In this document: positions 49,670-62,639 of the stretch, piece after piece
Numbering within the stretch: position 1 is the stretch's first letter
Layout of the letters: every line of letters begins with the position of its first letter
NCBI RefSeq assembly: GCF_900070365.1
Contig: NZ_LN850107.1
Coordinates: 5,704,001 to 5,768,000 of the forward strand
Length of the DNA stretch: 64,000 nucleotides
From: Alloactinosynnema sp. L-07
GTDB taxonomy: Bacteria; Actinomycetota; Actinomycetes; Mycobacteriales; Pseudonocardiaceae
Reading direction: 5' to 3'
Notes under the pieces: model-generated
What the model was told of the DNA's origin: nothing
The model's database searches: none
What the model saw: the letters and a program-made list of their open reading frames with translations, nothing else
Position numbers and translations under genes: made by a program

Positions 49670-50650
49670 CGCGTTTTGTGGGTTGGTCGGCGTGTTGGTG
49701 CTGGATATGAAGGTGCCCCTGCGCAGGCTGGTGATTGCTGAAGATCGCCGACCTGCGAGGGGCACTGTCATGTTGCCTGCTGAGGATCTGTTCGTCCACT
49801 GCTACGTCCTCGTCGATGACCTGATCAAGGATGCAGTGGTGGTCATCCCGCCGCGTCCTGGTCCGGCACCGGCCTGCACTGACGCCGAGATCATCACGAT
49901 TGGGCTGGTCAGACACCTGATGGGTCGGCGCAGCGAGTCCGGATTCGTCGCCGAGATCCGCCGCGAGTGGCCACGACTGTTCCCGTCGCTGCCTCACATC
50001 AGCGAGGTGAACCGCCGCGCCCGCTGGCTCTATGGCGCCTACGAACAGATCCGCCAGGCCGTGCTCGCCACGGTCCCTGCCGACACCTGGGGTCAGATCG
50101 ACACCTCCGCGCTGCCGGTCAAACACCCCAGCCGGGTCCGCGGCCCGGACTCCTGGACCGGGCCCAACGAGCTGTGCGCCCGTTTCGGCCGCGACGCCGC
50201 ACACGGCGAGTGGTTCTACGGTTTCCGCCTCGCTGTGCGCACCGACCTGGGTTCGCGGCTGGTCCGAGCCTGGGCGATCGTGCCCGCGACAGTGAGCGAA
50301 CGCGCACTGGTCCCCGACCTGATCGCCGGCGCCGAGCACCTCGTCGGCCTGCTCAACGAAAAAGGCTTCAACGGCCGAGCCTTCACCAAATCCCTTGCCG
50401 CACAAGGGATCACAAACCTGGTGCCGCCAACCAAGGCCGACCGCGCGACCATGCCAGCCACCCTGCAGAAGATCATCGCCGAGTGGCGCAACCGCGTGGA
50501 AACCACCTTCAGAGAACTCACCGACACCATGGAACTCGCCCGACACGGCGCTCACACCTTCCACGGCCTGCTCACCCGCACCGCCGCCACCATCGCAGCC
50601 CACAGCATCGCCCGGATCGCCCTACCGACAAACTGAACCCACAGAACGCG
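49670..50650 (+). mobile_element. IS982-family-like insertion sequence, about 981 bp
   Basis: Terminal inverted repeats CGCGTTTTGTGGGTT (49670-49684) and its complement at 50636-50650, 14 of 15 matched. Flanked by the direct repeat CCTTAGG (49663-49669 and 50651-50657), a 7-bp target duplication. One transposase gene fills the element. Both ends and frame look intact, suggesting recent insertion between the dynamin operon and the two-component system. Confidence 0.8.
49770..50636 (+). CDS. IS982-like DDE transposase
   Basis: 288 residues from ATG 49770; a longer start is possible. Contains TDAEIITIGLVRHLMGRRSESGF, TWGQIDTSALPVKHPSR (first Asp), GFNGRAFTKSLAAQGI and EWRNRVETTFRELTDTMELARHGAHTFHGLLTRTAA with the terminal Glu, as in IS982/DDE_Tnp_1 transposases. 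Complete frame ending at the right inverted repeat. Catalyses cut or copy transposition of the element. Confidence 0.85.
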   Translation: MLPAEDLFVHCYVLVDDLIKDAVVVIPPRPGPAPACTDAEIITIGLVRHLMGRRSESGFVAEIRREWPRLFPSLPHISEVNRRARWLYGAYEQIRQAVLATVPADTWGQIDTSALPVKHPSRVRGPDSWTGPNELCARFGRDAAHGEWFYGFRLAVRTDLGSRLVRAWAIVPATVSERALVPDLIAGAEHLVGLLNEKGFNGRAFTKSLAAQGITNLVPPTKADRATMPATLQKIIAEWRNRVETTFRELTDTMELARHGAHTFHGLLTRTAATIAAHSIARIALPTN

Positions 50651-52640: not shown

Positions 52641-52802
52641 AACGTAAGGGGCCGAACAGAACGGCCTGTTTGGGTGGTTCGCCTTGATTTGGGGGAAATG
52701 GGCCTAAACTCGCGGTGCGGGTGAGTCTTCTTGACCTCGCCTTTTGACCCGCACAGGCCCATTTCCAGGGGTCCCCAAATCAAGGCGAACCACCCAAACA
52801 GG
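52641..52802. repeat. MITE-like long hairpin repeat, copy 1
   Basis: Leader AACGTAAGGGGCCGAACAG (52641-52659), then a 138-bp dyad with 30-bp outer arms (52665-52694 and 52773-52802, perfect complements) and inner complementary segments GAAATGGGCCT/AGGCCCATTTC and GTGCGGGT/ACCCGCAC. A second copy, broken by an IS3 element, is at 61032-61053 plus 62497-62639. Both copies lie between the 3' ends of convergent genes, suggesting a repeated bidirectional terminator. Confidence 0.8.
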
Positions 52803-55486: not shown

Positions 55487-56248
55487 ATGACTCTGCTCGC
55501 CGTCGAACGCATCAAGCTCTTCACTACCCGCTCGCCGTGGTGGAGCACCCTCGCCGCCCTGGCCGTCACCGTCGGCTTCGCCGCGCTCATGGCGGGCACC
55601 GCCGAGACCGAGATCCCGATGACCGTCGCGGCCTCCCAGTTCGGCTACAGCTTCGGCCTCGTAGTCGTCATGGTCATGGCCGCGCTGGCGGTCACCACCG
55701 AGTACCGGTTCTCCACGATCCGGGCGACCTTCCAGGCCATCCCCAACCGCACCGCGGCGCTGCTGGCCAAGACCGTCGTCGTCGCCCTGCTCGCCGCGGT
55801 CATCGGCGAACTGGCCGCCTTCGGCTCCTGGGGCGTCGCGTCCCTGATCAGCCCGGCCGACCTGGCGATCAACACCGCCTTCGAGTGGCGCGCTGTGGCC
55901 GGTGTCGGCCTGGTCTACGCCCTGGCCGGGATCGTCTCGGTCGCCGTGGGCATCCTGATCCGGCACTCGGCGGGCGCGATCTCGCTGCTGCTCATCTACA
56001 CCCAGCTGGTCGAGTCGCTGATCTCGTTTATCCCCGAGGTGGGCGACGACATCCACAAGTGGCTGCCGTTCAACCTGGCCAACCACTTCCTCACCGGCAA
56101 TCCCGATCTGACCGGCAGGCCCCAGGAGTTCGGCCCGATGATCACCGACGTGACCATGAATCCATGGTCCGCGCTGGCGCTGTTCGCCGGGTTCTCCGTG
56201 GTCATGCTGGCAGGCTCGCTGGCGGTCGCGAACCGGAGGGACGCCTGA
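55487..56248 (+). CDS. ABC-2 type permease, copy 1
   Basis: 253 residues from ATG 55487, chosen because its N-terminus (MTLLAVERIKLF) matches the paralogue that follows; a GTG nine bases upstream overlaps the ATPase stop. Six membrane helices; characteristic TEYRFSTIRATFQAIPNRTAALLAKTVV. About two-thirds identical by eye to the next protein, so the two arose by tandem duplication and likely form a heterodimeric channel. Confidence 0.9.
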   Translation: MTLLAVERIKLFTTRSPWWSTLAALAVTVGFAALMAGTAETEIPMTVAASQFGYSFGLVVVMVMAALAVTTEYRFSTIRATFQAIPNRTAALLAKTVVVALLAAVIGELAAFGSWGVASLISPADLAINTAFEWRAVAGVGLVYALAGIVSVAVGILIRHSAGAISLLLIYTQLVESLISFIPEVGDDIHKWLPFNLANHFLTGNPDLTGRPQEFGPMITDVTMNPWSALALFAGFSVVMLAGSLAVANRRDA

Positions 56249-56973
56249 TGACGCTGCTCGCGGTCGAGCGCATCAAGCTGTTCAGCACCCGCTCGCCGTG
56301 GTGGAGCATCGTCGCGGCGCTGGGCCTGACGATCGGTTTCACGGCGCTGAGCGTCGGCACCAAGGACGCGGGCTTCCCCGTCACAATGGGCGAGACCCAG
56401 TTCGGCCGGATGTTCGGGCTGATGGTGGTCATGGTGATGGCCGCGCTGGCCGTCACCACCGAGTACCGGTTCTCCACGATCCGCACGACGTTCCAGGCTA
56501 TCCCCAACCGCAGCGCGGCCCTGCTGGCCAAGACCGCGGTCGTGGGTCTGCTGGCCGCGGTCATCGGTGAGGTCGCCGCGTTCGGCTCGTGGGGCATCGC
56601 CAACCTGTTGCAGCCCGCCGCCGACCTGGGCATCCACACCGCGGCGGACTGGCGGCTGATCGCGGGCACCGGCCTGGTCTACGGCCTCGGCGCGGTACTC
56701 GCGGTCGCGGTCGGCACGCTGATCCGGCAGTCGGCCGGCGCGGTCTCGGTGCTGCTGATCTGGCCGCTGCTGGTCGAGACGCTGGTCCAGCTCATCCCCA
56801 AGGTGGGCCAGGACATCGCCTGGCGGATGCCGTTCACCAACGCCAACGAGTTCGTTGCGGGGCCGTCGCCGGACGCGCCGTTCAGCCCGTGGGTCTCGCT
56901 GGCGTACTTCGCCGGGACCGTTGGGGTCTTCCTGGCCGCCGCGCTGGTCGTCGCGTCGAAGCGGGACGCGTAG
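56248..56973 (+). CDS. ABC-2 type permease, copy 2
   Basis: 241 residues; the ATG overlaps the preceding stop (TGATG). Same start MTLLAVERIKLF, same TEYRFSTIRTTFQAIPNRSAALLAKTAVV core and six helices. It lacks about 12 residues of the loop present in copy 1 before the last helix. Last gene of the exporter operon; a GC-rich hairpin follows at 57019-57054. Confidence 0.9.
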   Translation: MTLLAVERIKLFSTRSPWWSIVAALGLTIGFTALSVGTKDAGFPVTMGETQFGRMFGLMVVMVMAALAVTTEYRFSTIRTTFQAIPNRSAALLAKTAVVGLLAAVIGEVAAFGSWGIANLLQPAADLGIHTAADWRLIAGTGLVYGLGAVLAVAVGTLIRQSAGAVSVLLIWPLLVETLVQLIPKVGQDIAWRMPFTNANEFVAGPSPDAPFSPWVSLAYFAGTVGVFLAAALVVASKRDA

Positions 56974-57243: not shown

Positions 57244-57810
57244 TTGACGGTGGTTGACGCCGGTACGCCACAACGGATCCCGACGCCGCAGAGTCGCGGC
57301 CTGCATGTCGAGCCCATGATCGGCCTGGAGTGGTCCGAGGCGCTCGAACAGCCCTTCGGCGCCCAGCCGGGCTCGCCAGGCGAGGCCCGCCTGTCGTGGG
57401 TCCACCGCGCGCCCGAGGTCCAGGTGCTCGCCCTCTACCGGGCCGCGCGCGCCGCGGATCCCGACGTGCCCGCCCCGTGGTGGCTGCGTGCCCTCGCGGC
57501 CGGGACGCTGACCAGCCGACTCGAAGGCTGCCGCATCGAGGACCGGGTCACCAAGCTGCTCGACGCGCGCCCCGGCTGGGTGTTCGTGCCGTGGGGCGAG
57601 GAAGGCGAACCGGGGTACTGGGAGTACATGCCCTCCGAGCGCGCGCTGAGCCGCCCCGGCATGCCGACCACCCTCGCCCACACCGACCGGCACACCGGCT
57701 GGATCGACGTCGTGCCCGTGCACGCGGGTCCGACGCCGCCGCCCATCGCCGTCGGCGGGCTGGCCGACCTGCGCGCCAACCTCGCCCGGCTGGAGTCGCT
57801 GACCCCCTGA
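57244..57810 (+). CDS. Hypothetical protein
   Basis: 188 residues from TTG 57244 with GGAGG six bases upstream (GTG 57250 possible). No recognised domain. Contains RGLHVEPMIGLEWSEALEQPF, then an Ala-rich helical region, RPGWVFVPWGEEGEPGYWEYMPSERALSRPGMPTT and a short C-terminal helix. Rich in Trp and Pro; globular, cytosolic. Located 18 bases upstream of trmB, so probably co-transcribed with it. Function unknown. Confidence 0.7.
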   Translation: MTVVDAGTPQRIPTPQSRGLHVEPMIGLEWSEALEQPFGAQPGSPGEARLSWVHRAPEVQVLALYRAARAADPDVPAPWWLRALAAGTLTSRLEGCRIEDRVTKLLDARPGWVFVPWGEEGEPGYWEYMPSERALSRPGMPTTLAHTDRHTGWIDVVPVHAGPTPPPIAVGGLADLRANLARLESLTP

Positions 57811-57828: not shown

Positions 57829-58533
57829 GTGACACCGACCGAACAGGAGCCGCGCAAGCGCGCCGTGGTGAGTTTCGTGCACCGCGGCGGCCGGATGACC
57901 GTGGGCCAGGGCAAGGCGTGGGACCGGCGCTGGGACGAGCTGGGCAAGCAGGTTCCCCAGCTGCCGCCCGGCCCGATCGACCTCGACTCCTGGTTCGGCC
58001 GGTCGGCGCCGGTGCTGCTGGAGATCGGGTCCGGCATGGGCGAGACCACCTCGCAGCTGGCCAAGGCGGCCCCGGAGCTGAACTACCTCGCCGTCGAGGT
58101 CTACCAGCCGGGCCTGGCCCAGCTGATGCTGCGCGCGGAGGCCCTGGAGCTGACCAACCTGCGGCTGCTGCGCGGCGACGCGGTCGTGCTGCTCGGCGAG
58201 CACATCCCGGTCGGGTCGCTGGCCGGTGTGCGCATCTTCTTCCCGGATCCGTGGCCGAAGAAGAAGCACCACAAGCGGCGGCTGGTCCAGCCCGAGTTCA
58301 TCGCCTTGGTCGCCTCCCGGCTCGCGCCCGGCGCGACCATCCACCTGGCCACCGACTGGGAGAACTACGCCGAGCAGATGCTCGAAGTGCTCTCGGCCGA
58401 GCCGACGCTGCGCAACCGGTACGACGACTGGGCGCCGCGGCCGGACTGGCGGCCGGTGACAAAGTTCGAGTCCCGGGCCCGCGAAGAGGGACGGATCAGC
58501 CGGGATCTGATCTTCGAACGAGTGAATGATTGA
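57829..58533 (+). CDS. trmB: tRNA (guanine-N7-)-methyltransferase
   Basis: 234 residues from GTG 57829. SAM-binding motif LLEIGSGMGETT; conserved VEVYQPGLAQLMLRAE; the family signature FFPDPWPKKKHHKRRLVQPEF; and TDWENYAEQMLEVL near the end. The enzyme methylates G46 of tRNAs in the cytosol. Complete, normal length. Confidence 0.95.
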   Translation: MTPTEQEPRKRAVVSFVHRGGRMTVGQGKAWDRRWDELGKQVPQLPPGPIDLDSWFGRSAPVLLEIGSGMGETTSQLAKAAPELNYLAVEVYQPGLAQLMLRAEALELTNLRLLRGDAVVLLGEHIPVGSLAGVRIFFPDPWPKKKHHKRRLVQPEFIALVASRLAPGATIHLATDWENYAEQMLEVLSAEPTLRNRYDDWAPRPDWRPVTKFESRAREEGRISRDLIFERVND

Positions 58534-58612: not shown

Positions 58613-59641
58613 GTGACCGCACTGCGCGACGACGTCCTGCCCCTGCCCCGCGCGATCCCGCACACCACCGACTCCGTAGCGGACCTCGAACAAGAGGCCG
58701 CGCACTTCCTGCGCCTGTACCACGCCGCCCGGCCCAAAGCGGGCGCCGTCCACGAGCGGATGGCCAAGGTGCGCGCCGAGATCGCGGCCACCGGCACCTA
58801 CCGCCACACCCAGGCCGAGCTGGCCTTCGGCGCCCGCGTGGCGCTGCGCGACAGCGGCTGGTGCCCCAGCGCGGTGCCGTGGCGCGGCCTGCTGGTGCGC
58901 GACCTGCGCGCCGTGCGCGACGCCGACACCGTGGTCGCCGAGTGCGGCAAGCACCTGCGGACCGCGGGCCTGGGCGGCCAGGTCCGCCCCACGGTCACCG
59001 TCTTCGCCCCCGACACGCCGTGGCGGCGCGGCCCGCGCATCCGAAACGACCAGCTCGTGCGCTACGCGGGCTATCGCGGCGTGCCCGACGGGGACATCGG
59101 CGACCGCCGCTACACCGACTTCACCACCGTCGTGGGCAAGCTCGGCTGGCGCCCGCCGCTGACCAGGGGCGCCTTCGACCGGCTGCCCCTGGTCGTGGAG
59201 ACCGACGACGAGGGCATCACCCTGCACACGCTGCCCAGCGAAGTCGTGCGCGAGGTCGCCTTGGTCCACCCGACGCTGCCTTGGTTCGCCGAGCTGGGCC
59301 TGCGCTGGCACGCCGTGCCGGTGATCAGCAACCAGCGGTTGCACATCGGCGGCATCGACTACCCCGCCGCGCCGTACAACGGCGTCTACCTGTGCCGCGC
59401 GATCGGCGAGGACGTCATCGCCGACGACTCCGCCTACGGGCTGGCGCGGGTGATCGCCGCCCGGCTCGGCCTCGACACCGCCAGCGAGCGCACCCTGTGG
59501 CGCGACCGGGTCGCCGTCGAGTGCAACCGCGCGGTGCTGCACTCGTTCGACGCGGCCGGGGTCACCGTCGAACACTCGGCCGAGGCCTACGCGTCACCCG
59601 CGTCGTCCCACGGCAGACCGGCGTTCCTCCGCCAGCGTTAA
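58613..59641 (+). CDS. Divergent nitric oxide synthase oxygenase-like protein
   Basis: 342 residues from GTG 58613. Clear NOS-oxygenase architecture: RHTQAELAFGARVALRDSGWC with the proximal heme Cys84, RPTVTVFAPD, NDQLVRYAGYRGV, FDRLPLVVE, VHPTLPWFAELGLRWHAVPVISN, HIGGIDYPAAPYNG and LGLDTASERTLWRDRV. The substrate-arginine-binding Glu, normally in the (W)YM-TEIG segment, is replaced: here VYLCRAIG with Ala263. The final about 40-50 residues that carry the pterin-site Trp are missing. It therefore binds heme plausibly but may not make NO from arginine. The next gene starts 11 bases later, so nothing was lost to annotation. Confidence 0.8.
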   Translation: MTALRDDVLPLPRAIPHTTDSVADLEQEAAHFLRLYHAARPKAGAVHERMAKVRAEIAATGTYRHTQAELAFGARVALRDSGWCPSAVPWRGLLVRDLRAVRDADTVVAECGKHLRTAGLGGQVRPTVTVFAPDTPWRRGPRIRNDQLVRYAGYRGVPDGDIGDRRYTDFTTVVGKLGWRPPLTRGAFDRLPLVVETDDEGITLHTLPSEVVREVALVHPTLPWFAELGLRWHAVPVISNQRLHIGGIDYPAAPYNGVYLCRAIGEDVIADDSAYGLARVIAARLGLDTASERTLWRDRVAVECNRAVLHSFDAAGVTVEHSAEAYASPASSHGRPAFLRQR

Positions 59642-59652
59642 AGTTCCCAGCT

Positions 59653-60960
59653 ATGAGCCTGCGCTTGCGTGCCCCGATTGTCCTGCCCTGCGACGCCGCG
59701 TGTTCGGTGCTGCGCGACGCGGTGGTCGACATCGGCGCCGACGGCCGGATCCTCCACTGTGGACCGACGGCGACCGCGCCCGCGTCCGACGCGCCCGTGC
59801 GCCTGCTGACCGGCATCCTCATGCCCGGCCTGGTCAACACCCACGCGCACAGCCCGATGACGGTCCTGCGCGGGATGGGCGACAACCTTCCGCTGATCCG
59901 CTGGCTCACCGAGGTCATCTGGCCCGCCGAGGGCAAGCTGACCGGCCAGGACGTCTACGCGGGCATGGTCCTCGGCTCAGTGGAGATGCTCCGCGCGGGC
60001 GTGACCACCAGCGCCGAGATGTACTTCCACGGCGAGGACGTCGCCCGCGCGATCATCGACACCGGCGCCCGTGGCGTCATCGCCCCGGCCGTGCTCGACG
60101 GACTCGGCATGGACTGGCGGAAGATGCTGGCCGACATCAGCACCTGGATCGACGCCGACGGCCTGCGCTTCGGCCCCGGCGAGCGCGTCGAGCTGGGCTA
60201 CGGCCCGCACTCGGCCTACACACTGCCGCCCGCCGCGCTGACCGAGGTCGCCGAAGCGGCCAGGCAGCGCGACGCCCTGGTCCAGATCCACGTCGCCGAG
60301 TCACTCCCGGAAGACCAGACCCAACGCGCCGAGCACGGGTCGGTCCCGGCCCTGCTCGCCAAGGTCGGCTTCTTCGGCGGCCGCGTGCTCGCCGCCCACT
60401 CGGTGCACCTGTCCGACACCGACATCGCCCTCTACGCGGACAACGGGGTCGGCGTCGCGCACTGCCCCGGCTCGAACACCAAACTCGCCTCCGGCATCGC
60501 CCGCCTCACCGACCTGCGAGCGGCGGGCGTCGCGATCGGCCTGGGCACCGACGGCCCAGCCAGCAACGACGACCTGGACCTCTGGGAGGACATGCGCCTG
60601 GCCGCCCAACTGGCTCGCGTGTCCACAATGGACCCAACCGCACTCGGCGCCGCCGACACCCTGCTACTAGCCACCCGAGGCGGCGCCCAAGCCCTACACC
60701 GCAACGACATTGGCGCCCTGGAAGCGGGCCGCTGGGCCGACCTGGTCCACGTCGGCATCGACGACCCAGCCTTCGCCGCAGGCCTGGACGTACCCGACAC
60801 CCACCTGATCGCAAACCTGGTGTGGGCAGCCGGATCCAGGACAGTCTGCGACGTCTGGGTCGCGGGCGAACAGGTAGTCGCCGACCGCGAACCAACCAGA
60901 ATCGACCGCACAGAAGCACAGGCGATGGCCGGAAAGGTAACCACCCGCCTGCTTGCGTAG
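59653..60960 (+). CDS. SAH/MTA deaminase-like amidohydrolase
   Basis: 435 residues from ATG 59653. Amidohydrolase metal sites: NTHAHSPMTVLRG (two His), QIHVAESLPEDQ, LAAHSVHLSDTDI and LGTDGPASNDDLDLWEDMRL with the catalytic Asp, as in MtaD/SsnA-like deaminases. It would deaminate S-adenosylhomocysteine, 5'-methylthioadenosine or a related compound in the cytosol. Starts 11 bases after the NOS-like stop, so the two are probably one operon; the functional link is unclear. Confidence 0.9.
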   Translation: MSLRLRAPIVLPCDAACSVLRDAVVDIGADGRILHCGPTATAPASDAPVRLLTGILMPGLVNTHAHSPMTVLRGMGDNLPLIRWLTEVIWPAEGKLTGQDVYAGMVLGSVEMLRAGVTTSAEMYFHGEDVARAIIDTGARGVIAPAVLDGLGMDWRKMLADISTWIDADGLRFGPGERVELGYGPHSAYTLPPAALTEVAEAARQRDALVQIHVAESLPEDQTQRAEHGSVPALLAKVGFFGGRVLAAHSVHLSDTDIALYADNGVGVAHCPGSNTKLASGIARLTDLRAAGVAIGLGTDGPASNDDLDLWEDMRLAAQLARVSTMDPTALGAADTLLLATRGGAQALHRNDIGALEAGRWADLVHVGIDDPAFAAGLDVPDTHLIANLVWAAGSRTVCDVWVAGEQVVADREPTRIDRTEAQAMAGKVTTRLLA

Positions 60961-61091: not shown

Positions 61092-61946
61092 TTAGGGCGC
61101 GAGGGCCTGGGCTCGGTATTCGACCGGGCTCAGGCCCTTCAGCGTGGTGGAGATGCGGGTGTTGTTGTACCAGTCGAGGTACTCGTCCAGGGCTGTGGTG
61201 AACTCCTCGACGGTGCCGAACGTGTCATGGTTGAACATTTCCTCCTTGAGGTGGCCGAAGAAGTTCTCGGCGAGTGAGTTGTCCAGGCAGTTGGCTCGCC
61301 GGGACATCGACTGCGGCAGACCCGCGTCGGCCAGCAGCGCGCGCCAGGAGGCGTGTTGGTACTGGAAGCCCTGGTCGGAGTGCACCAGCGGTGTGGCCCC
61401 GGCGTTCAGGGTGGCGATGGCCTCGCGCAGCGAGGAGTTCGTCAGTTCCAGCGACGGGGACGGGCCGTGGGTGTAGGCGATGACGGATCGGTCGAACAGG
61501 TCGATCACCGGTGACAGGTAGATCTTGCGGTCCGCGATGCGGAACTCGGTGACGTCGGTGACCCACTTCGTGTCGGGGGCCTGGGCGCTGAACTGGCGGT
61601 TCAGCACGTTCTCGGCGACCGTGCCTGCCTGCCCGAGCCAGGACCGATACCGCCGCGGCCGCCGCACCTTGCAGACCAGGCCCAGGGTGTTCATCAGCTT
61701 GAGCACGGTCTTCTTGGCCACCCGCCGGCCCTGGCGGGCCAGCACGAGGTGAATCCGCCGATGCCCGTATCGGCCACGAGCCTGCTCGAACGCCTCGGTG
61801 ATCGCGGCCTTGAGACCCGCGTGCGGATCGGGGCGCGACAGCCGGGCCTGCTGGTAGAAGAACGTCGACCGGGCCACACCGGCGACCTCCAGCAGCACCG
61901 GCAGCGGATAGTCGGCCTTGAGAGTGGCGATGACCTGGGTTTTCAC
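61092..61946 (-). CDS. IS3-family transposase OrfB (integrase core)
   Basis: 284 residues. HTH_21-like start (ARGRYGHRRIHLVLARQG) and rve integrase core with the DDE residues: TKWVTDVTEF (Asp), PLVHSDQGFQYQ (Asp) and the Glu in CLDNSLAENFFGHLKEE. In vivo most activity comes from the OrfAB fusion made by frameshifting at 61976-61982. Frame is intact, so the element may be active. Confidence 0.92.
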   Translation of the reverse strand: MKTQVIATLKADYPLPVLLEVAGVARSTFFYQQARLSRPDPHAGLKAAITEAFEQARGRYGHRRIHLVLARQGRRVAKKTVLKLMNTLGLVCKVRRPRRYRSWLGQAGTVAENVLNRQFSAQAPDTKWVTDVTEFRIADRKIYLSPVIDLFDRSVIAYTHGPSPSLELTNSSLREAIATLNAGATPLVHSDQGFQYQHASWRALLADAGLPQSMSRRANCLDNSLAENFFGHLKEEMFNHDTFGTVEEFTTALDEYLDWYNNTRISTTLKGLSPVEYRAQALAP

Positions 61947-62437
61947 CCTCGCCCCTGCTCCCTCAAGGCCCGCAATTTTTTTAGGTAGGCCACCTCCGCG
62001 GACAGCCGCAGGTTCTCCCGCCGCAACCGCTCCAGCTCGCTTGGCGCCGGCGCGGGCGATCGCGTGTCACCGGCGGGCGGCCGCCCTTTCGGCTTGGGCC
62101 GCAACGCTTCGGCGCCCTCACGCCGATACAGCCGCACCCAGTTCTCGACCAGCTTGGGCGAGGACAGGTCATGCTCGCGCGCGAGCTCGATCGCGGTCGC
62201 CTCACCGCTGACGAACCGCCGCACCACATCGAGCTTGAACTCGAACGTGAACGACCGCTTGCCCGGCACCATCACCAGCGCCCCCGCGCCTCGCAGCCTC
62301 CAACGATCATGCAAGCGTCCCACCGCGTCCGGGGACACACCCAGCCGGGTCGCGACCGCGCCTCTGCCATACCCGGCCTCGAACAACGCGACAGCAGCCT
62401 CCCGCTGCCGCTCCGACAACGAACTACCTGGATACAC
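61943..62437 (-). CDS. IS3-family transposase OrfA (helix-turn-helix)
   Basis: 164 residues from a GTG at 62437. Two HTH units: LSERQREAAVALFEAGYGRGAVATRLGVSPDAVGRLHDRW and FKLDVVRRFVSGEATAIELAREHDLSSPKLVENWVRLYRR, then a leucine-zipper-like helix (SELERLRRENLRLSAEVAYLKKLRALRE). It binds the inverted repeats. Ends just inside OrfB, with the slippery heptamer near its end. Confidence 0.9.
   Translation of the reverse strand: MYPGSSLSERQREAAVALFEAGYGRGAVATRLGVSPDAVGRLHDRWRLRGAGALVMVPGKRSFTFEFKLDVVRRFVSGEATAIELAREHDLSSPKLVENWVRLYRREGAEALRPKPKGRPPAGDTRSPAPAPSELERLRRENLRLSAEVAYLKKLRALREQGRG
61976..61982 (-). other. Slippery A7 run for -1 frameshifting (OrfA to OrfAB)
   Basis: Seven A on the minus strand, read CTA AAA AAA TTG in OrfA frame at the codons for YLKKL. 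A -1 slip continues into the OrfB frame and gives the OrfAB fusion transposase, as established for IS3-family elements. Confidence 0.75.
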
Positions 62438-62496
62438 CAAACCGCTCCCCGGAAGACGGAACTGGATTACCAGTCCAACTTCCGGGGAGCAGTTCA

Positions 62497-62639
62497 AAAC
62501 GGCCTGTTTGGGTGGTTCGCCTTGATTTGGGGGAAATGGGCCTAAAATCGCGGTGCGGGTGAGGTTCCTTGAGCTCGCCTTTTGACCCGCACAGGCCCAT
62601 TTCTAGGGGCCCCAAATCAAGGCGAACCACCCAAACAGG
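62497..62639. repeat. MITE-like long hairpin repeat, copy 2 (main body)
   Basis: The 137-bp dyad 62503-62639 matches copy 1 (52665-52802) with scattered changes; outer arms CCTGTTTGGGTGGTTCGCC and their complement are kept. Its leader was separated by the IS3 insertion. It lies between the plus-strand amidohydrolase (beyond the IS) and the minus-strand SDR. Confidence 0.85.

Follow-up and report, generated by a model that had tools for sequence, protein, structure and literature searches.

Can a protein that keeps the heme-binding Cys and most of the oxygenase motifs of a nitric oxide synthase (NOS), and has Ala in place of the Glu that binds arginine, still be counted as a NOS, and if not, what might it do? 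The question is raised by a gene of Alloactinosynnema sp. L-07 that lies, with the following neighbours, in the window analysed here, a stretch of 64,000 nucleotides.

57829..58533, + strand: trmB, tRNA (guanine46-N7) methyltransferase, upstream (TIGR00091, 161 bits against a cut-off of 112.65)
58613..59641, + strand: NOS-like gene, type A (GTG start, 342 aa)
59653..60960, + strand: amidohydrolase resembling MTA/SAH deaminases, downstream (PF01979, 188.9 bits; best PDB match 4f0r)

An earlier note, made from the letters of the window, had given the open reading frame these limits and a gap of 11 bases to the next ATG (59653), both of which proved correct on re-reading, and had proposed a heme protein with a new substrate or a sensing role rather than a classical NOS.

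Fold and active site of the NOS-like protein

Sequence and fold place the window protein with NOS. The open reading frame scores 310.5 bits against PF02898 (NO_synthase), the match covering positions 4-302 of the 362 in the profile, and its product aligns to solved NOS chains of cyanobacteria, mammals and bacilli. Residues 19-342 of its AF2 model (mean pLDDT 83.4, pTM 0.80) align to residues 2-359 of B. subtilis NOS in a structure comparison, and NOS entries are among the matches listed by a Foldseek search with this model, so that the domain and oxygenase fold expected of a NOS are present, as is the axial heme Cys (Cys84). NCBIfam gave no match for this protein nor for the canonical NOS of the host and is non-discriminating here, and Rfam gave no match across 56-62 kb of the window. 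The host genome, a single 7.4-Mb contig, carries a second, complete NOS (L001) at 1.24 Mb, with 423 aa and 511.9 bits in the profile search.

Residues were compared across two samples. A protein search yielded 1948 relatives among 8000 candidates scored, and residues were counted on the best 120 of these, which comprise 94 type-A rows (P0002-P0095, the window protein included) and 26 of type B. Named genomes were scanned as well, and of the 363 loci obtained the best 80 were used; with the window added, these include 21 type-A loci, 36 type-B rows along with two divergent ones (L063, L072), and a single type-D locus. The canonical comparison set has 22 rows, the complete NOS of the host among them. 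The features on which the comparison turns are as follows.

58613..58633, + strand: N-terminal tail VTALRDD, before a low-confidence linker (alignment, model)
58844..58846, + strand: codon of Leu78, proximal-Trp column (alignment)
58862..58867, + strand: codons of Cys84-Pro85, axial heme Cys and invariant Pro (alignment)
59384..59386, + strand: codon of Val258, conserved-Trp column, mapped by us to Trp356 of human eNOS (alignment)
59399..59401, + strand: codon of Ala263, arginine-binding Glu column (alignment)
59408..59413, + strand: codons of Glu266-Asp267, new acidic pair, 267 being the pterin-Arg column (alignment)
59588..59617, + strand: point of the internal deletion, pterin/lariat segment gone (DHH-to-PxF spacing)
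59618..59626, + strand: PxF anchor at the C-terminus (Pro336-Phe338), kept (alignment)

On the proximal side of the heme, Cys84 is the axial ligand position as first described, and the column holds Cys in all 21 type-A loci. The next residue is Pro in every one of these and in 94/94 of the listed type-A relatives, in place of the Cys-Ile of all 22 canonical rows and the Cys-Thr of type B; relative to the host's complete NOS, the Arg before the Cys has become Trp83 and the Ile after it Pro85. According to a passage of PMC9500659, a Trp contacts the Cys, to whose thiolate it hydrogen-bonds, and this contact is presumed to adjust the potential of the heme. This proximal Trp, present in 22/22 canonical rows, is Leu78 in the window protein, Leu (19) or Val (2) across type A, and Leu (34) or Met (2) in the 36 type-B rows.

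The grip on arginine has likewise been changed. Glu592 of rat nNOS is described in part of PMC6120233 as the residue that holds arginine. At this column the earlier note read Ala263 correctly, and Glu occurs in 0/21 type-A loci (Ala 17, Thr 2, Gly 1, Ser 1) compared with 22/22 canonical rows; the 94 type-A relatives among the best 120 of 1948 have Ala in 89, Thr in 3, Gly in 1 and Ser in 1. The flavodoxin domain interacts at a conserved Trp, residue 356 in human eNOS, as stated in a passage of PMC12922734. The replacement of a neighbouring Trp by Val-Tyr had also been noted and stands, although its numbering slipped by one residue: the Val is 258, not 257, and is followed by Tyr259. This docking column is Trp in 22/22 canonical and 35/36 type-B rows, and Val (20) or Ile (1) in type A; neither it nor the proximal column holds a Trp in any of the 94 listed type-A relatives. 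Not recorded at first were the docking function of this Trp and the losses of the proximal Trp (now Leu78), of the Arg that precedes the Cys (Trp83), of the pterin Arg (Asp267) and of the Arg of column 274, which we take to be another pocket Arg and which is Ala in 19/21 type-A loci, that of the window included.

The floor of the distal pocket, on the other hand, is nearly intact, with Pro236, Asn256, Gly257, Tyr259 and Arg150 each in 21/21 type-A loci and Ile238 and Gln147 each in 20/21; among the 94 listed type-A relatives the Cys and the columns of Pro236, Asn256, Gly257, Tyr259 and Ile238 are kept in 92-94. Such a pocket, in which the shrinking of the Glu and Trp columns to Ala and Val would make additional room, gives rise to the main rival of the reading that we favour below, namely a heme-thiolate oxygenase or peroxygenase, pterin-free and perhaps peroxide-driven, with a substrate other than arginine that is probably bulkier and lacks a guanidine group. 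We consider this possible, though we would not lean towards it: the Glu column varies between Ala, Thr, Gly and Ser, as if nothing were gripped there, and the conserved reductase-docking Trp is gone.

Could a Glu elsewhere have taken over the lost contact? There is none at column 263, but two new acids lie in the same predicted helix, residues 261-270 forming one helix in the AF2 model. Column 266 is Glu in 21/21 type-A loci and Ala in the host's complete NOS, and column 267 is Asp (19) or Glu (2) in type A and Arg in 36/36 type-B and 22/22 canonical rows, neither acid being found in either of those sets. A protein that remains an arginine NOS with its acidic anchor shifted to Glu266/Asp267 would account for this conservation. 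This seems to us very improbable, however: canonical NOS has its pterin Arg at column 267, roughly a helical turn away from the arginine-binding Glu, and type A also lacks the Arg of column 274, the pterin site and the dimer segment.

The absence of the pterin-site region was confirmed, and a search of the sequence for a complete pterin site found none in the window protein; what did not stand is the view that the C-terminal end had been lost. The deletion is internal, with the PxF anchor kept beyond it (Pro in 20/21 and Phe in 21/21 type-A loci). The DHH column and the PxF motif are 15 residues apart in 21/21 type-A loci, 21-22 in the 36 type-B rows and 51-53 in the 22 canonical ones, corresponding to deletions of about 36 residues in type A and about 30 in type B. 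A stop codon or frameshift that removed the C-terminus is ruled out by the identical spacing in all 21 loci and by the anchor that follows. Gapped in 21/21 type-A loci, and also in types B and D, are the two Trp columns of the pterin segment. Available passages of PMC9500659 describe a Trp that stacks on the pterin in NOS and a requirement of dimerisation for NOS catalysis in vitro, and one of PMC12922734 places helical lariats with BH4 at the centre of the dimer interface; the pterin Arg, the stacking Trp and the lariat/dimer segment are all missing from the window protein.

At the other end, the motif [MV]TALRD is found in 20/21 type-A loci, in 1/38 type-B loci (24 more have a looser form) and in none of the 22 canonical rows; in the AF2 model residues 1-19 have a pLDDT under 50. 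Of the 14 columns with a fixed difference between type A and the canonical set, five fall in the proximal loop and five in the 258-274 stretch that surrounds the Glu and pterin-Arg columns. As judged from these alignments, the type-A substitutions are far from chance.

Relatives, phylogeny and selection

The earlier note had proposed a search for homologues with the same substitutions, and a whole clade of them was found, represented by the 21 type-A loci and the 94 listed relatives. It includes Actinokineospora, Actinophytocola, Labedaea and Herbihabitans, and the window protein is 65-77% identical to the proteins of 13 named Actinokineospora loci. Among 200 Pseudonocardiaceae genomes, 115 have a match to any NOS and 17 to type A (type assigned by score), and a type-A match is present in 10/10 sampled genomes of the host genus. 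At E <= 1e-107 the window protein was matched in 25/397 genomes of the order, all within its own family, and in 2/394 genomes of the class, both of the host genus; in the sampled genomes type A looks family-bound. As 11 of the 17 type-A genomes have no second NOS match, type A would be independent of a canonical partner, and a heterodimer with canonical NOS is disfavoured.

A tree of 68 rows (86 less 18 near-duplicates), built with the diagnostic columns included, sets types A and D apart together by a split with support 100/99, gives type A alone 96/72, and separates A, B and D from the canonical rows (100/99). Type B, as we have named it, is the sister clade of the type-A side of the tree and comprises Kutzneria, Saccharothrix, Lentzea and Saccharopolyspora; as labelled it needs two changes on this tree, the two divergent rows standing apart. 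A quick tree of all 86 rows, again with the diagnostic columns included, joined A and D (99) and gave type A alone a support of 61. We also observed that the NOS-like proteins of two loci, L053 (titled Rhodococcus rhodnii) and L033 (Nocardia sp.), group with Kibdelosporangium and Lentzea, and these labels may be wrong.

Type B keeps an acid at the arginine column (Glu 29, Asp 7 of 36), and its 26 rows among the best 120 of 1948 relatives show Glu in 23 and Asp in 3, with the axial Cys in 25 and Ala in one; the latter is a metagenomic protein, P0109. Type D, found in Kibdelosporangium and its kin, also lies at the trmB locus, and six of six fetched copies (L085-L090, where L090 and L068 come from the same genome) have Tyr at the axial column. 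Across 20 type-D relatives (P0122-P0141) this column holds Tyr in 18, His in 1 and Cys in 1, the distal Ile column is Arg in 15/20, and the Glu column is Ala in 17, Glu in 2 and Val in 1. The type is not uniform, given its Glu in 2/20 and its Cys in 1/20. Tyr, His and Cys are all able to ligate heme, which suggests, though this is a guess, that heme has been retained in type D.

Uncorrected pN/pS ratios, from a simple home-made count in which high third-position G+C may distort pS, were 0.205-0.502 for seven type-A pairs, 0.17-0.21 for two type-B pairs, 0.21-0.29 for two canonical pairs and 0.06-0.34 for 15 type-D pairs. By this measure the tested pairs of each type are under purifying selection; type A may be less strongly constrained, since its ratios lie mostly above those of the few type-B and canonical pairs and those of type D. 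Decay of a duplicate towards a pseudogene would explain the missing catalytic residues, the complete NOS elsewhere in the genome and a pN/pS somewhat above that of the other types. We nevertheless regard decay as scarcely credible in view of the pN/pS range itself, the type-A match in every sampled genome of the host genus, and the constant spacing of 15 residues and newly invariant positions shared by 21/21 loci.

The type-D sequences bear on another alternative, in which the protein is a pseudoenzyme, heme-free or able to dispense with heme, acting as a scaffold or as a module for binding. In 19/20 listed type-D relatives the axial Cys is gone, yet selection on type D remains purifying (pN/pS 0.06-0.34), and A, B and D alike have gaps at the Trp columns of the pterin segment. 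We find a pseudoenzyme improbable for the window protein: the Cys of 21/21 type-A loci and the near-invariant distal heme pocket would be hard to explain without heme, and the axial replacements in type D are themselves residues that can ligate it.

Genomic neighbourhood

The gene occupies a recurrent chromosomal position. A trmB gene is present in 21/21 type-A and 32/38 type-B loci, lying directly upstream on the same strand (<=400 bp) in 16 and 29 of them, respectively. Downstream of type A the amidohydrolase lies no more than 400 bp away in 16/21 loci and at 482 bp in one, and is absent from the fetched stretch in four; against NCBIfam it reached no cut-off. The gap of 11 bases in the window, together with the 16/21 loci, may be read in favour of the oxygenase introduced above, for which the amidohydrolase could be a pathway partner. 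A dedicated pathway with this enzyme is weak as a proposal, however: the amidohydrolase occurs in 190/200 genomes of the family (E <= 1e-60) compared with 115/200 for any NOS match, it is absent from the fetched stretch in 4/21 type-A loci, and no dedicated partner is visible. In 12 chosen stretches around amidohydrolases of the family no NOS match was found, and in five of these trmB directly precedes the amidohydrolase with gaps of 33-644 bp, while in the other seven it lies kilobases off or outside the stretch. The NOS-like gene thus sits between two genes that co-occur without it, and because such trmB-amidohydrolase pairs exist and 190/200 genomes carry the enzyme, the amidohydrolase is not a private partner of the NOS-like gene.

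The neighbourhood of type B differs downstream, where a HisKA_3 (DesK-type) sensor kinase is found in 22/38 loci (e.g. L022:11334-12506), within 340 bp in 20 of them and at 0.7 kb in L072 and 3 kb in L063. In the latter two, 2/38 loci, the kinase is accompanied by a LuxR-type response regulator. Neither a sensor kinase nor a LuxR-type regulator was found at any of the 21 type-A loci, and the single type-D locus counted likewise has no sensor kinase after the gene.

Several other features surround the gene in the window. The open reading frame upstream of trmB (57244-57810) belongs to a cluster present in 16 A-labelled and 22 B loci and has no Pfam or NCBIfam match. A direct repeat of 131 nt, 90% identical, occurs at 52648-52778 and 62486-62616, 9.8 kb apart, and beside its second copy lie overlapping open reading frames on the - strand (61092-61946 and 61943-62497) that by eye resemble an IS3-type transposase pair. 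Also by eye, an open reading frame at 49683-50636 (+ strand), upstream of a histidine kinase gene, resembles an IS4/IS5-type transposase, and a second direct repeat of 300 nt, 78% identical (55487-55786 and 56248-56547), lies within apparently tandem-duplicated ABC permease genes.

Possible roles and known systems

The earlier view that this is not a classical NOS is borne out, in that the guanidinium, pterin, dimer, proximal-Trp and docking columns are changed throughout a clade that is under purifying selection. As the arginine Glu, the Cys-contacting Trp, the pterin Trp, the docking Trp and the lariat/dimer parts are all absent, arginine-to-NO chemistry in type A appears very unlikely; the window protein is probably no longer an arginine NOS and probably no longer makes NO. 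Several features that define a NOS were looked for and are missing, so the protein should not be filed as one. Judged from its sequence and that of its relatives, type A is plausibly a heme protein, for which the invariant Cys and the distal floor argue.

Our favoured reading, to which we assign a probability of roughly 45%, is that a NOS fold without a NOS role is represented here, a candidate heme-thiolate protein that would sense a ligand or a redox state. A heme protein responsive in this way is preferred because there is no pterin and no docking Trp, the residue at the Glu site is small and variable, and the N-terminal tail is conserved. As the alignments show, the clade has given up its arginine-gripping residue, the pterin/dimer segment, the Trp that tunes the thiolate and the one that docks the reductase, and has kept the axial Cys together with the distal floor. 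Heme would be bound through Cys84 in a monomer or loose dimer, a small ligand (a gas, peroxide or heme itself) would bind or the redox state would change, and the signal would be relayed via the conserved N-terminal tail rather than through arginine turnover. In favour of sensing we count the DesK-type kinase that accompanies the sister type B in more than half of its loci; counted against it are the nearly intact distal pocket, which fits an enzyme equally well, the possibly weaker constraint on type A, and the lack of a sensor kinase after the gene at the 21 type-A loci.

A broader scenario, which we think rather unlikely as a whole, is that the NOS fold was stripped stepwise in Pseudonocardiaceae, mostly at one chromosomal site, giving a lineage of heme proteins that do not make NO and that include a Tyr-ligated, catalase-like heme. 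With the order read from the 68-row tree, the first losses would have been those of the Trp that tunes the thiolate and of the pterin/dimer segment (common to B, A and D), followed by those of arginine and reductase binding (A and D); last of all, Kibdelosporangium and its kin would have exchanged the Cys ligand for Tyr (18/20), with Arg at the distal Ile column (15/20).

Databases give such proteins names such as "nitric oxide synthase oxygenase", and domain-based counts of NOS may therefore overstate the number of NO producers in the family. If heme is bound, these proteins would be natural variants of the NOS heme site in which the proximal Trp, the Glu and the pterin segment, and in some the Cys too, are missing in known combinations, which would make the contribution of each part testable and reveal what the NOS fold can be reused for. 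We found no description of such variants in open-licence PMC literature (titles, abstract starts and passages). One paper on NOS-guided mining (PMC10831120) describes, in the part available, a similarity network of homologues more than 45% identical to PtnF, and its main text contains no occurrence of Actinokineospora or Saccharothrix.

Compared with the bacterial NOS oxygenases of B. subtilis, S. aureus and G. stearothermophilus, type A lacks the substrate Glu, the proximal and docking Trp, the pterin Arg, the pterin Trp and the lariat segment, and adds the CP dipeptide, the Glu-Asp pair and the N-terminal VTALRD tail. TxtD, RufN and PtnF are likewise actinobacterial NOS homologues and, in the passages of PMC10831120 and PMC9500659 by which alone they were compared, are described as sources of NO for biosynthesis; the window gene, in contrast, lies between trmB and an amidohydrolase with no visible natural-product cluster. 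The Cys-Pro heme sensors (HAP1, the ALAS1 leader), as described in part of PMC6154995, share with type A a Cys-Pro at the heme-binding Cys. In type A this dipeptide stands at the heme-ligand column in all 21 loci. The folds of these sensors are unrelated to that of NOS, and a likeness of two residues is a weak lead rather than evidence of membership. Type B resembles type A in having lost the proximal Trp and most of the pterin segment and in the trmB of its locus (32/38), but unlike type A it keeps the Glu/Asp, the docking Trp (35/36) and the pterin Arg, has Cys-Thr for Cys-Pro, and is followed by a sensor kinase in 22/38 loci.
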